Source: Lawsonibacter sp. (lineage in GTDB: Bacteria; Bacillota; Clostridia; Oscillospirales; Oscillospiraceae). Taken from it: a stretch of DNA of 64,000 nucleotides. The notes below the pieces were generated by a model. That model made no database searches. It had not been told where the DNA came from and saw nothing but the letters and a program-made list of their open reading frames with translations. This document shows, piece by piece, positions 37,213 through 43,369 of this stretch; within the stretch, counting starts at the first letter, position 1; the number at the start of each line of letters is the position of its first letter. The translations under genes were made by a program, and so were the position numbers. Location of the stretch: positions 41,431 to 105,430 of the forward strand of contig JAAWSG010000002.1 of the NCBI GenBank assembly GCA_022801435.1, given 5' to 3'.

Positions 37213-38040
37213 ATGAAGCAGCATAAAAGAGCCCTGGCGGTGTGGATTGGGGTAACCCTGGTCCTGCTGGCTGGGGCTCTTCTGGCCGGTACACAGGAAC
37301 GGCCGGAGAGCGTGCAGGCGGCTATGCGGGACGCCGTACTGCATGATATCAACCAGATCGGCTTTTTTGGGGGGAAGGCGGTCAACCCCGGACTGATCTC
37401 CGCCTTCCTGGTGACGGGGCTGCTGCTGCTGGCGGCGGCCTGTATCCGGATCTTTGCCATTCCCCGGTTCCGGTACGCCCCTGGAAAACTCCAGCTGCTG
37501 GTGGAGGAGGCGGTGGGGCTCTTCGACCGCATGGCCAGGGGCAGCAGTCCCCACCGGTGCGGCTTTTTGGGGGCCTACATCTTCGCCTGCGGGTGCTATG
37601 TCTTTGTGGGGACCCTCTTTGAGCTGCTGGGCGTGCAGGCTGTCACCCTCCGCGGCCAGGCGGTGACCCTGCCCGCGCCCCTGTCCGATGTCAACGCGGC
37701 CATCGCCCTGGGGACCCTGTCCTACCTGGTCATCCTCTCCGGCGGGGTGGCGGGGAACGGGGTGCGGGGAGTGGGCAGGACCCTGAAGGAGTTTTCACTG
37801 CCCATCTCCATGAGCTTCCGGCTCTTCGGAGCGCTGCTCAGCGGACTGCTGGTCACCGAGCTGGTGTACTACTACGTCAGCCTGAGCTTTGTCCTGCCCA
37901 TTGTGGTGGGGGTGCTGTTCACCCTGCTCCACGCGCTGATCCAGACCTACGTGCTCACCATGCTCACCTCCCTGTACTACGGCGAGGTGTCCGAGCCGCC
38001 GGAGGCGCATAAGTCCAAAGAAATTCAAGAGACGGTATAG
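37213..38040 (+). CDS. atpB: F-type ATP synthase subunit a
   Basis: A 275-residue membrane subunit that forms the ion channel. Five to six helices are seen. The essential Arg is in SFRLFGALLSG (family RLFGN; the usual Asn is Ala here). The C-terminus ends in LTSLYYGEV, which fits the family LxxxY end. Start ATG 37213 follows AAGAAGGGA; the upstream open frame has no ribosome site. First gene of atpB-E-F-A-G-D-C. There is no atpI ahead of it. Confidence 0.9.
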   Translation: MKQHKRALAVWIGVTLVLLAGALLAGTQERPESVQAAMRDAVLHDINQIGFFGGKAVNPGLISAFLVTGLLLLAAACIRIFAIPRFRYAPGKLQLLVEEAVGLFDRMARGSSPHRCGFLGAYIFACGCYVFVGTLFELLGVQAVTLRGQAVTLPAPLSDVNAAIALGTLSYLVILSGGVAGNGVRGVGRTLKEFSLPISMSFRLFGALLSGLLVTELVYYYVSLSFVLPIVVGVLFTLLHALIQTYVLTMLTSLYYGEVSEPPEAHKSKEIQETV

Positions 38041-38052
38041 GGGGTTTTTACC

Positions 38053-38418
38053 ATGAAGCAGATGTTGAAGCGTGTATGTATCCTGGCCGGAGTCCTGGCT
38101 CTGGCCCTGACCCTGGCCCTGCCCGCCCTGGCGGCGGAGGGGGCCGCGCCCATGGAGGAGACCGCCGTGTCGGAGAGCCAGTCCCCGGACCTGACCCCCG
38201 GCCTGAAGGCGGTGGCGGTGGCCCTGGCCATCGGCATCGCGGCGGGGGGGGGCGGCATCGGCATGGGGCTGGCCACCGCCCGGTCGGCGGAGGGCATCTC
38301 CCGCCAGCCGGAGGCGGAGGGCAAGATCCGCACCATTATGATGCTGGGTCTGGTCTTTATTGAGACCGCCATTATCTATGCCCTGCTGGCGGTCATCCTG
38401 ATTATCTTCGTCATGTAA
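38053..38418 (+). CDS. atpE: F-type ATP synthase subunit c with N-terminal signal-like extension
   Basis: 121 residues, against about 70-90 for most c subunits. The first 28 residues look like a cleavable signal peptide (KRVCILAGVLALALTL, then ALPALAA), followed by an acidic linker. The hairpin proper has helix 1 GIAAGGGGIGMGLATA, the polar loop EGISRQPE and helix 2 LVFIETAIIYALL with the ion-binding Glu. The helix 1 position that is Gln in classic sodium-type rings is Met; the residue after the Glu is Thr. Ion choice is therefore unclear. Confidence 0.9.
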   Translation: MKQMLKRVCILAGVLALALTLALPALAAEGAAPMEETAVSESQSPDLTPGLKAVAVALAIGIAAGGGGIGMGLATARSAEGISRQPEAEGKIRTIMMLGLVFIETAIIYALLAVILIIFVM

Positions 38419-38423
38419 GGCAG

Positions 38424-38924
38424 GTGGACAAAATGCCGCTGAACATTGATTGGCAGCAGATTCTGCTGCACTGGATGAATCTGGCCATTCTCACCGGGGG
38501 GCTGTATGTGCTGCTCTACAAGCCGGTGAAGGAGTTTATCGCCAAGCGGGAGGAGCACTACCGCCAGATGGAGGGGGAGGCCGCGGACAAGCTGGCCCAG
38601 GCGGAGCAGGTCCGGGCGGAGTACCAGGCCAAGCTGGACGGGGCGGGGGAGGAGATCCGCCAGGCCCGCGCCAAGGCCCAGCAGGCCCTCCAGCAGTCCA
38701 CCGAGGAGCAGCTGGCCCAGGCCCAGGAGCAGGCCCGGCAGATCGTGGCCCACGCCCGGGCGGAGGCGGAGCACAGCCGGGAGCGGATTATGAGCGAGTC
38801 CCGGCGGGAGCTGAAGGAGCTGACCGCCCGGGCCGCCAAGAAGCTGGCCGCCCACCCGGAGGCGGACCCCTTTGACCAGTTCCTGGACCTGGCGGAGGGA
38901 GGGCGCGCCCATGAGGAACAATAG
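38424..38924 (+). CDS. atpF: F-type ATP synthase subunit b
   Basis: A 166-residue b subunit: one N-terminal membrane helix (ILLHWMNLAILTGGLYVLLY) and a long charged coiled coil (AEQVRAEYQAKLDGAGEEIR). Length is normal for b alone, so no delta domain is fused to its end. In most bacteria atpH (delta) follows; here the next gene starts 14 bases before the atpF stop and is alpha. Start ATG 38424; a second ATG three codons on (MPLNIDW) is also possible. Confidence 0.92.
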   Translation: MDKMPLNIDWQQILLHWMNLAILTGGLYVLLYKPVKEFIAKREEHYRQMEGEAADKLAQAEQVRAEYQAKLDGAGEEIRQARAKAQQALQQSTEEQLAQAQEQARQIVAHARAEAEHSRERIMSESRRELKELTARAAKKLAAHPEADPFDQFLDLAEGGRAHEEQ

Positions 38925-40665
38925 AGGCCACCTGACGGCGGTGCTGCGCAGCGCCCGCCAGCCCAGCAAGGAGCAGGTCCAGCGTTTTCAGGACTTCCTG
39001 GCCCGGACCTACCAGCGCAAGATCCCCCTGAACTGGGAGCAGGACGACGCCCTCCACGGCGGCTTCCGGCTCCAGGTGGGGTCGGATGTGTACGACTGGA
39101 CCCTCAACGGCAAGGCCCGGCAGTTCCGGGACTACCTGCGCCAGCTGGACGCGGGACAAAACGACATCCTCCCCCTGATGCGCCAGGCGGTGGAGGAGTG
39201 GACCCCCTCCATCGGCCCCGAGGAGTTCGGCCAGGTGCTGACGGTGGACGGGGAGGTGGCCGTGGTGGGCGGGCTGGAGCACGCCCAGTACGGGGAGATT
39301 TTGATGTTCTCCGGCGGGGTGAAGGGGCTGGTCCAGGACCTGCGCCGGGGGGAGCTGAGCTGCATCCTCTTTGACGGCGGGGAGGAGGTCACCGCCGGGA
39401 GCATGGTCCGCCGCACCCTGAAGACCGCCGGGATGCCGGTGGGGGAGGACTACCTGGGCCGGGTGGTGGACGCCCTGGGGATGCCCATGGACGGCAAGGG
39501 TCGCATTCAGCCCGAGGGCTACCGGCCCATCGAGTCCCCCGCCCCCGGTATTCTGGACCGCCAGCCCGTGAACACCCCTATGGAGACCGGCCTGCTGGCC
39601 ATCGACTCCATGTTCCCCATCGGCCGGGGCCAGCGGGAGCTGATTATCGGCAACCGGCAGACAGGAAAGACCGCCATCGCCCTGGACACCATCCTCAACC
39701 AGAAGGGGAAGGACGTGGTGTGCATCTATGTGGCCATCGGGCAGAAGACCAGCTCGGTGGCCCAGCTGGTGGAGAACCTGTCCCGCCGGGGGGCCATGGA
39801 GTACACCACGGTGGTGAACGCCTCCGCGGGGGCCTCCGCCGCCCTGCAATATATCGCCCCCTACGCCGGCTGCGCCCTGGGGGAGCACTTTATGCGCCAG
39901 GGCCGGGACGTGCTCATTGTCTATGACGACCTGAGCAAGCACGCGGTGGCCTACCGGACCCTGTCCCTGCTGCTGGAGCGCTCCCCGGGGCGGGAGGCCT
40001 ACCCCGGCGACGTGTTCTACCTCCACTCCCGCCTGCTGGAGCGCTCCGCCCATCTGAGCGACGAGCTGGGCGGGGGGAGCATGACCGCCCTGCCCATTGT
40101 GGAGACCCAGGCGGGGGACGTGTCCGCCTATATCCCCACCAACATCATCTCCATCACCGACGGGCAGATCTTTTTGGAGGAGGGCCTGTTCTTTGTCGGC
40201 CAGCGGCCCGCGGTGAACGTGGGGCTTTCGGTCTCCCGGGTGGGCGGAGACGCCCAGACCAAGGCCATGAAGTCCGCCGCCGGGGCCATCCGGCTGGAGC
40301 TGGCCCAGTACCGGGAGATGGAGGTCTTTACCCAGTTCTCCAGCGACCTGGACGAGGCCACCAAGCGCCAGCTGGCCTATGGGCAGGGGCTGATGCGCCT
40401 GCTGCGGCAGCCCCAGAACGCCCCCCTGGCCCTCTGCCAGCAGGTCATTTTGCTCACCGCCGCCATGGCCCGCGTGATGCAGGAGGTCCCCCTGGAGCGG
40501 ATGGACGCCTTCCGGGACGGCCTGCTGGCCTTCGCGGAGGAGGAGGGGGCGGACCTGTGCCGGCGGATCGACATGACCGGCCTGCTCCCCCCGGAGGACC
40601 GGGAGGAGATTGTTGGCCTGGCCCGGCGGTATCTGGAAACCTTCCTGGGAAAGAGCGGTGGCTGA
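38911..40665 (+). CDS. atpA: F-type ATP synthase subunit alpha with N-terminal delta-like domain
   Basis: 584 residues, about 80 more than a usual alpha. Alpha proper starts near residue 81 and has Walker A GNRQTGKTA (about 247), VYVAIGQ-type CIYVAIGQK, DDLSKHAVAYR and SVSRVGGDAQTKAMK. Residues 6-80 resemble the C-terminal domain of subunit delta: LTAVLRSARQPSKEQ, then a helix, KIPLNWEQDDALHGGFRLQVG, where family delta has a conserved D-x-x-L-x-G-G, then a closing helix. No full delta gene exists in the operon. Start ATG 38911 follows GGAGGGAG and overlaps atpF. The fusion is read directly from one frame; its function as the stator link is inferred. Confidence 0.9.
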   Translation: MRNNRGHLTAVLRSARQPSKEQVQRFQDFLARTYQRKIPLNWEQDDALHGGFRLQVGSDVYDWTLNGKARQFRDYLRQLDAGQNDILPLMRQAVEEWTPSIGPEEFGQVLTVDGEVAVVGGLEHAQYGEILMFSGGVKGLVQDLRRGELSCILFDGGEEVTAGSMVRRTLKTAGMPVGEDYLGRVVDALGMPMDGKGRIQPEGYRPIESPAPGILDRQPVNTPMETGLLAIDSMFPIGRGQRELIIGNRQTGKTAIALDTILNQKGKDVVCIYVAIGQKTSSVAQLVENLSRRGAMEYTTVVNASAGASAALQYIAPYAGCALGEHFMRQGRDVLIVYDDLSKHAVAYRTLSLLLERSPGREAYPGDVFYLHSRLLERSAHLSDELGGGSMTALPIVETQAGDVSAYIPTNIISITDGQIFLEEGLFFVGQRPAVNVGLSVSRVGGDAQTKAMKSAAGAIRLELAQYREMEVFTQFSSDLDEATKRQLAYGQGLMRLLRQPQNAPLALCQQVILLTAAMARVMQEVPLERMDAFRDGLLAFAEEEGADLCRRIDMTGLLPPEDREEIVGLARRYLETFLGKSGG

Positions 40666-40666
40666 G

Positions 40667-42961
<2,295 letters not shown>

Positions 42962-42962
<1 letters not shown>

Positions 42963-43369
42963 TGGACAGCTTTCAGATGCACATTCTGGCGGCGGACCAC
43001 ACCTTCTATGAGGGGCCGTGCCTCAGCCTGACCATCCCCACCAGCGGCGGGGAGCAGGGGATTTTGGCCCACCACAGCAATATGATCGCGGCGGTCCAGC
43101 CGGGGATTCTGCGCTACCGGCTGCCGGGCCAGGAGGTACAGCAGGCGGCGGTGTCCCAGGGGATGGTGAAGGTGGAGCGCAACGACGTGCTGGTGCTGGT
43201 GGACTCGGTGGAGCGCCCGGAGGAGATTGACGCCGCCCGGGCCCGCCGGGAGGCGGATGAGGCCAGGGAGGCCATGCTGCAGCGGAAGAGCCGCCAGGAG
43301 TACCAGCTGGCCCAGGCGACTCTGGCCCGGGCGCTGAACCGGCTGAAGGTGAAGGGCCTGGAGCGCTGA
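42962..43369 (+). CDS. atpC: F-type ATP synthase subunit epsilon
   Basis: A 135-residue epsilon: N-terminal beta sandwich (FYEGPCLSLTIPTSGGEQGILAHHSN split by the usual G-I-L-x-x-H motif) and C-terminal helical hairpin (ARREADEAREAMLQ). It inhibits ATP hydrolysis in many bacteria. Last gene of the operon; a dispersed repeat follows 17 bases later rather than a classical terminator. Confidence 0.93.

Follow-up and report, generated by a model that had tools for sequence, protein, structure and literature searches.

An F-type ATP synthase operon without a delta gene

The window (the whole 64,000-nucleotide stretch of Lawsonibacter sp. DNA that we analyzed) contains a complete ATP synthase operon at positions 37213-43369, in the order a-c-b-alpha-gamma-beta-epsilon, as judged from open reading frames and profile searches. 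All of its genes lie on the + strand. They encode a divergent a subunit of 275 amino acids (37213..38040, PF00119); a c subunit of 121 amino acids (38053..38418, with PF00137 on residues 55-117); a b subunit of 166 amino acids (38424..38924), whose only domain match is PF00430; an alpha subunit of 584 amino acids plus stop, starting with ATG (38911..40665); gamma (40667..41554, PF00231); beta (41559..42962, PF00006 and TIGR01039); and epsilon (42962..43369), with both epsilon domains (PF02823 and PF00401). The start of alpha lies inside the end of b (a 14-base overlap), and a Shine-Dalgarno-like GGAGGGAGGG lies 5' of the alpha ATG. A preliminary description, made from the sequence, had given this gene order and stated that atpH is missing, and both the list of open reading frames and the profile searches bear this out: we found no gene between b and alpha in the window operon.

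The enzyme belongs with the F-type (F1Fo) ATPases in that alpha, beta, gamma, epsilon, a, b, and c are all recognized in one operon. By visual inspection, alpha, beta, a, and c also have their nucleotide-binding and ion-site signatures. What is absent is one separate full-length delta: only its C-terminal half was found, inside alpha (the genome is 81% complete). Some accepted F-type enzymes have delta missing or fused, so we consider the window enzyme a variant rather than a non-member.

The fused domain of alpha

Residues 83-566 of the alpha frame are an ordinary alpha subunit (TIGR00962, 683.5 bits, cut-off 484.45). In front of them, hmmscan places PF00213 (OSCP) on residues 2-75, with 38.0 bits against a cut-off of 22.3 (E = 2.3e-9). 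The match covers positions 97-171 of the 172 in the profile; positions 1-96, which are the helical N-terminal domain of delta, have no counterpart in the window alpha. As the preliminary description had proposed, alpha carries the C-terminal domain (CTD) of delta without the delta N-domain.

The alpha N-terminus is predicted to have the delta/OSCP C-terminal fold, which is also what the preliminary description had suggested checking by structure prediction. An AlphaFold model of residues 1-100, built from 44 aligned sequences, has a mean pLDDT of 79.4, with about 90 over residues 11-60. (The AlphaFold model of the whole alpha chain is poor, with a mean pLDDT of 64.6.) The predicted order is strand-helix-strand-strand-strand-helix, followed by the alpha N-terminal helix at residues 87-95. 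Foldseek gave 25 PDB matches at E ≤ 0.001, all to ATP synthases of bacterial, mitochondrial, or chloroplast origin; we call the matched chains delta, b-delta, or OSCP by their labels and lengths. With the alignment as the query, HMMER gave 12 distinct PDB sequences at E ≤ 0.01. These are delta, b-delta, and an engineered delta-alpha fusion (9jc1), and the matched stretch is the C-terminal part of delta in each of the 12.

From Pfam OSCP, AlphaFold, Foldseek, and HMMER, the domain proper spans about residues 8-80 (38932..39150, + strand). The alpha N-terminal helix lies 3' of it, at residues 85-100 by alignment and AlphaFold (39163..39210, + strand), and P88, L89, and W97 of this helix are invariant among 30 aligned fused alphas. 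The preliminary description had taken the first 80 or so residues as a delta-like unit with a D-x-x-L-x-G-G pattern. The unit stands, and so does its approximate size, but its extent has to be narrowed to the residues just given, with the helix close behind, and the motif reads L-H-G-G-F (with GG at 50-51) and Y-D-W.

Absence of a separate delta subunit

When PF00213 was searched against the whole window genome (G000, 108 contigs, 81% complete), there was no match besides the fused alpha. Four near-complete genomes of the genus that have the fusion also lack a second delta match (G007, 1 contig, 96% complete; G021, 97%; G003, 96%; and G005, 95%). The window operon thus has both features of a delta-deltaN-alpha enzyme: the delta CTD is in frame with the alpha N-terminus, and the delta N-domain and a free delta are both absent (in a genome that is 81% complete, with the near-complete relatives in agreement). 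Neither of the two things that the preliminary description had named as counting against its reading, an atpH elsewhere in the genome or an N-terminus unrelated to delta, turned up in this 81%-complete assembly.

The fused alpha is the only alpha above the cut-off in the window genome. Further ATPase-superfamily frames lie on contigs C39, C10, and C53; judging by their lengths, they may be a V/A-type enzyme and another ATPase of this kind.

Comparison with known enzymes

The preliminary description was wrong to think that this fusion was undescribed. The architecture is already known: in the excerpts that we draw on here, Ueno et al. (2025, PMC12229609) both engineered it and pointed to natural cases. 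They removed the delta N-domain from Bacillus PS3 FoF1 and fused the CTD to alpha (PMC12229609), and they name Acidaminococcus fermentans as having the same natural fusion and UniProt G4Q3K6 and A0A1I2C5T3 as having similar features. The A. fermentans ATP synthase is like that of the window in being a delta-alpha fusion without the delta N-domain, as compared by its published description only. In contrast, the excerpts of a 2017 article (PMC5709465) contain no mention of a delta-alpha fusion.

The engineered delta-deltaN-alpha enzyme (PDB 9jc1) likewise has the CTD on alpha, a short linker, no N-domain, and no free delta. The window alpha aligns to its chain I in one collinear stretch (query 8-564 on chain 4-564, or 557 residues of the window protein), with the chain longer by one residue in the delta domain and by three in the linker. 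According to the excerpts, the PS3 enzyme was made in the laboratory and its epsilon C-terminal domain was also removed, whereas the window enzyme is natural, has both epsilon domains, and has divergent a and c subunits.

A delta CTD is also fused to another stator part in mycobacteria, but there it is joined to b instead of to alpha. Mycobacterial b-delta is present in one copy per enzyme and keeps the delta N-domain. This protein (PDB 7jg5, 8j0s, and others) is among the best sequence and fold matches of the fused domain. We rule out a mycobacterial-type b-delta enzyme in the window, as the window b has only PF00430.

Another known type whose operon has no delta is the N-type ATPase. The N-type gene order is beta-epsilon-Q-R-a-c-b-alpha-gamma. 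The excerpts of PMC5706428 describe N-ATPases as lacking delta and having a longer b. The window enzyme is not of this type: its alpha scores 606.2 with TIGR03324, against a cut-off of 750.5, its order is a-c-b-alpha-gamma-beta-epsilon, and its b, at 166 amino acids, is not elongated.

Finally, natural two-stalk enzymes seem to exist. In Chloroflexus aurantiacus (PDB 9itj series), b accounts for 72 chains in 18 PDB entries, or four each on average, and delta for 12 chains in 6 entries, or two each. We found no paper on the Chloroflexus enzyme in the open-licence PMC literature, so this point rests on the PDB chain counts. Of the PDB sequences, the Chloroflexus b matches the window b best, but the Chloroflexus delta is a separate 157-residue chain, unlike the fusion in the window.

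Distribution and conservation of the fusion

The preliminary description had suggested a survey of relatives, and a long alpha without a separate atpH does recur. We searched 64 genomes of the window's genus with the alpha model, which found an alpha above the cut-off in 42 and none in the other 22. The 42 alphas comprise 29 CTD-alpha fusions, 3 full delta-alpha fusions, and 10 without an extension. The same fused frame was read in 24 genomes, the window's included; the other CTD-alpha fusions (G068, G071, G043, G055, and G054) were assigned by open-frame length alone. In one full delta-alpha fusion (L041/L255, G011:C1), the alpha N-terminal helix has an apparent tandem duplicate by eye.

A scan of a collection of named genomes gave 179 relatives, and the best 80 were kept. 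Among these 80 loci, the fused alpha is open over 560-625 amino acids at 73, and a separate delta frame is present at none. Carriers include Flintibacter muris DSM 110149, Colidextribacter sp. OB.20, Pseudoflavonifractor sp. 60, Neglectibacter sp. X58, Acutalibacter sp. 1XD8-33, Anaeromassilibacillus senegalensis An867, and Faecalibacterium sp. An121.

The fused domain is under purifying selection that is looser than that on the core. Between the window and 18 relatives, dN/dS is 0.25-0.56 for the domain, whose first codons overlap b, which could push its value slightly down, and 0.15-0.33 for the alpha core.

Among the matches listed, at least 32 of the 391 Clostridia genomes sampled have a delta-alpha fusion (24 CTD-alpha and 8 full). 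We read 28 of the 32; G718, G644, G557, and G503 are counted by frame and match only. G539 (L211) is counted despite one stop in its match row because the stop is ahead of the start, while the remaining matches that contain internal stops represent separate neighboring genes and do not enter the fusion counts. A draw of 348 genomes from the phylum, with a stricter threshold, gave six fused frames (in G000, G081, G539, G479, G1040, and G1081), and G1040 and G1081 are outside the class. (G1149 is cut by a contig end and was kept out of the six.) The profile used for the fusion survey (A1) was built from fused proteins. Of the 114 CTD-alpha loci, 18 have a domain that a profile of ordinary delta does not pick up, and these 18 rest on the fused-protein profile or on alignment by eye.

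The fusions are mostly in one clade of F-ATPases, described below as the second group of the alpha tree. In at least 10 genomes (G464, G501, G479, G629, G669, G821, G788, G649, G587, and G106), an enzyme of this second clade, fused in nine and a stub in one, lies beside an ordinary alpha with a separate delta.

Evolutionary history

CTD-alpha appears to have arisen several times. We built a maximum-likelihood tree of the alpha core, with the extension removed, from 67 rows. This tree takes in 7 of the 80 named loci and is without eleven of the sixty loci (L201, L202, L219, L221, L226, L230, L231, L232, L240, L243, and L254); a quicker tree holds all sixty. The alpha-core tree has two main groups. 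The first, of 18 rows, holds most of the ordinary alphas with a separate delta, and it also has CTD-alpha (L225, L238/L239, and L326/L327) and a full fusion (L324). The second, of 49 rows (support 100/99), has separate delta mostly at its base, full fusions in between, and CTD-alpha deeper inside, with two separate-delta forms (L224 and L252) among the fusions. The window's clade is 29 rows within it (97/96), of which 27 are CTD-alpha and 2 are stubs, that is, alphas with a short extension and no delta match. In the clade with the fusions, delta is therefore found as a separate gene, as a full fusion with alpha, and as a CTD-alpha fusion, and two lineages have none.

On the alpha-core tree, CTD-alpha amounts to 8 changes, and at least 6 are forced by well-supported branches. 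If the stubs are taken as losses, parsimony gives at least 4 gains of CTD-alpha. A tree of beta (61 rows) agrees on the second clade and on the repeated origins, with 8 changes and at least 5 forced. The beta tree has weak root support, places L248/L249 elsewhere than the alpha tree does, and dropped further loci whose beta was missing, short, or continuous with the gamma frame. The change counts leave direction unfixed, since some separate delta genes could have come from the splitting of a fused gene.

Several other gene forms were noticed in these operons. First, L248 (G039:C2) and L249 (G120:C11) have a free-standing CTD-only delta, a frame of 74 amino acids, between b and a normal alpha. 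This is loss of the delta N-domain without fusion, although the G120 match of L249 shows one internal TAG. Second, gamma and beta form one open frame, with no stop between them, in L214 (G578:C6), L215 (G700:C37), and L342 (G1301:C71). These frames of 797, 802, and 842 amino acids are from three genomes in two families, which have a CTD-alpha fusion too, and the single frame is present in 2 of 9 genomes searched of family f77. Taken literally, it would fuse rotor and stator subunits, and the absence of the delta N-domain might leave the axis free for such a link; in L214 and L215, beta retains its own ATG with a Shine-Dalgarno-like stretch 5' of it. Third, the window c subunit has an N-terminal extension of about 50 amino acids that looks like a signal peptide by eye. 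Stop-to-stop c frames of at least 110 amino acids are found in most CTD-alpha operons and in both stubs; elsewhere, they are 77-101 (full fusions), 75-112 (separate delta), or 74 (free CTD). The a subunit is likewise divergent in the window's clade.

The b subunit and the stub lineages

The C-terminal DPFDQFLDLAE of the window b is presumed to be the docking peptide for the delta domain. With a simple pattern, we recognized a C-terminal b helix in 111 of 113 CTD fusions, 10 of 13 full fusions, and 15 of 20 separate-delta operons, but in neither of the 2 stubs and neither of the 2 free-CTD operons. The pattern is loose, as seen from its missing 3 of the 13 full fusions, 5 of the 20 separate-delta operons, and both free-CTD operons. 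Several of the missed b ends are helical by eye, and in the missed L169 b is split over two frames.

The stubs are L235 (G106:C26) and L237 (G698:C165). Each has a short helix-like extension of alpha, with no delta match, and b directly overlaps alpha. Their b proteins are shortened and lack the C-terminal helix that is present in the other b proteins compared. Each stub genome also has an ordinary alpha with a separate delta (L236 for G106 and L278 for G698), and in the L237 operon the a gene is interrupted by an in-frame stop. Loss of the helix together with the CTD, known from these two lineages, is suggestive of the fused domain being the docking site for b. The two lost pieces adjoin in the operon, so a single deletion could account for each stub.

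In neither the G698 family (21 genomes) nor the G106 family (150 genomes, 13 with a match) did we recognize another stub genome. The G106 family has 14 matched places. The 8 that were fetched besides G106 are fused or separate-delta forms; of the remaining places, delta is separate at L289-L292, and a contig end truncates L287. In the G698 family, L263 and L278 were looked at, and both have a separate delta.

How many stalks?

The numbers of stalks and of a subunits per ATP synthase have been taken as one each. We know of no purified native enzyme of the window's clade. The engineered PS3 enzyme offers a guide, as far as the excerpts of its description go (Ueno et al., 2025, PMC12229609). In the authors' reasoning, the one-stalk limit comes from the position of the delta N-domain on the three-fold axis. 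Without this domain, they saw up to three b2 stalks and three a subunits by cryo-EM and about two stalks on average by SDS-PAGE. Equilibrium measurements gave an H+/ATP ratio of 5.8, compared to 3.0, and the enzyme makes ATP at half of the usual equilibrium proton-motive force, while its ATP-driven proton pumping is lower (PMC12229609).

We propose that the window probably encodes a functional F1Fo ATP synthase/ATPase with stator docking built into alpha, and with an F1 that is able to take more than one b2/a stalk. The sequence shows the delta CTD joined to the alpha N-terminal helix, with the delta N-domain lost. As the composition is alpha3beta3, three identical docking domains would sit atop F1 if every alpha is full length. 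The preliminary description had likewise expected three such domains per F1 and a stoichiometry in need of rethinking, and we judge that it was right. Each domain would bind the C-terminal helix of one b2 dimer, as in ordinary enzymes. Because the N-domain that caps the three-fold axis and sets the one-stalk limit is gone, F1 could take more than one b2/a stalk. More stalks would move more ions per ATP, so the enzyme could operate when the proton-motive force is low, as one would expect for a gut fermenter; alternatively, it could use each ATP to pump more ions when the gradient to be overcome is low. From this architecture we infer a native stalk number above one, although a stalk count as such cannot be read from sequence.

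The main rival explanation is that the same fusion assembles with a single b2/a stalk, leaving two domains idle and the H+/ATP ratio ordinary. This could come about if a and b were in limited supply, if the c-ring were crowded, or through extra contacts. We take this seriously but think it unlikely on balance. The operon does have one a gene and one b gene, like ordinary operons. Also, full-length delta-alpha fusions exist, and they retain the delta N-domain and should still permit one stalk, so fusion alone need not serve several stalks. In the excerpts, triple-stalk particles of the engineered enzyme were very rare by cryo-EM (PMC12229609), but the authors attribute the loss of stalks to grid preparation, and the extra stalks bind via the canonical b2 contact. 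A single stalk also fits poorly with the history of the delta N-domain, which enforces one stalk and is precisely the part that was lost, repeatedly, at the time of fusion or after it.

A second alternative, that internal starts yield a short alpha so that each F1 has about one delta domain and ordinary stoichiometry, seems improbable. A Shine-Dalgarno-like stretch does precede an in-frame start within codons 69-112 in 65 of 74 rows, often as GAGGAG before a GTG at codon 109. However, this GAGGAG encodes the conserved E-E of PEEIG and would be expected anyway, so it is probably frequent for coding reasons, and a start at codon 109 would remove the alpha N-terminal helix. Such a stretch precedes an ATG in codons 80-92 in only 8 of the 74 rows, the Met at that boundary is Ile in some relatives, and across the 74 rows internal starts at the domain boundary are not conserved.

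Third, this could be a decaying or non-functional second ATPase, with the fusion as a step in its degeneration. Two lineages have lost the domain, one of them with the in-frame stop in a, and at least 10 hosts also have an ordinary F-ATPase. Yet the fused alpha is open at 73 of the best 80 of 179 named relatives, the domain has a dN/dS below 1 and the core a low one, alpha, beta, a, and c retain their nucleotide-binding and ion-site signatures by eye, and the window genome has no other alpha above the cut-off; we find decay very hard to credit. Least credible by far is a normal atpH in the missing part of the genome, with the fused domain as decoration: the assembly is only 81% complete, but the four near-complete fusion genomes have no other delta match and the best 80 of the 179 named relatives have no separate delta frame.

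Implications

More broadly, and more tentatively than for the window enzyme itself, we suggest a large, natural, and repeatedly evolved class of F-ATPases. In these, F1 would be three-fold symmetric for stator docking and would normally carry two to three b2/a stalks, and the enzyme would serve as a low-gear ATP synthase at low proton-motive force in gut anaerobes, often beside an ordinary enzyme. It would have arisen stepwise, from a separate delta to the full fusion, then by loss of the delta N-domain, and then, in two lineages, by loss of the docking domain. We put the chances for this broader picture at somewhat short of even.

In the open-licence PMC literature, we found no prior report of the spread of the fusion through Clostridia or of the second F-ATPase clade, nor of the intermediate series or the repeated origins, and relative to that literature these are what is new here. 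Cultured carriers (Flintibacter muris and others), together with the intermediates (full fusion, free CTD, and no CTD), allow direct testing.

The engineered enzyme, as described in the excerpts of Ueno et al. (2025), indicates that the delta N-domain enforces a single stalk and that its removal multiplies the ions moved per ATP. If natural enzymes behave likewise, then H+/ATP would be an evolvable gear, set by the number of stalks as well as by the size of the c-ring, and gut anaerobes would be making use of the stalk-number gear.
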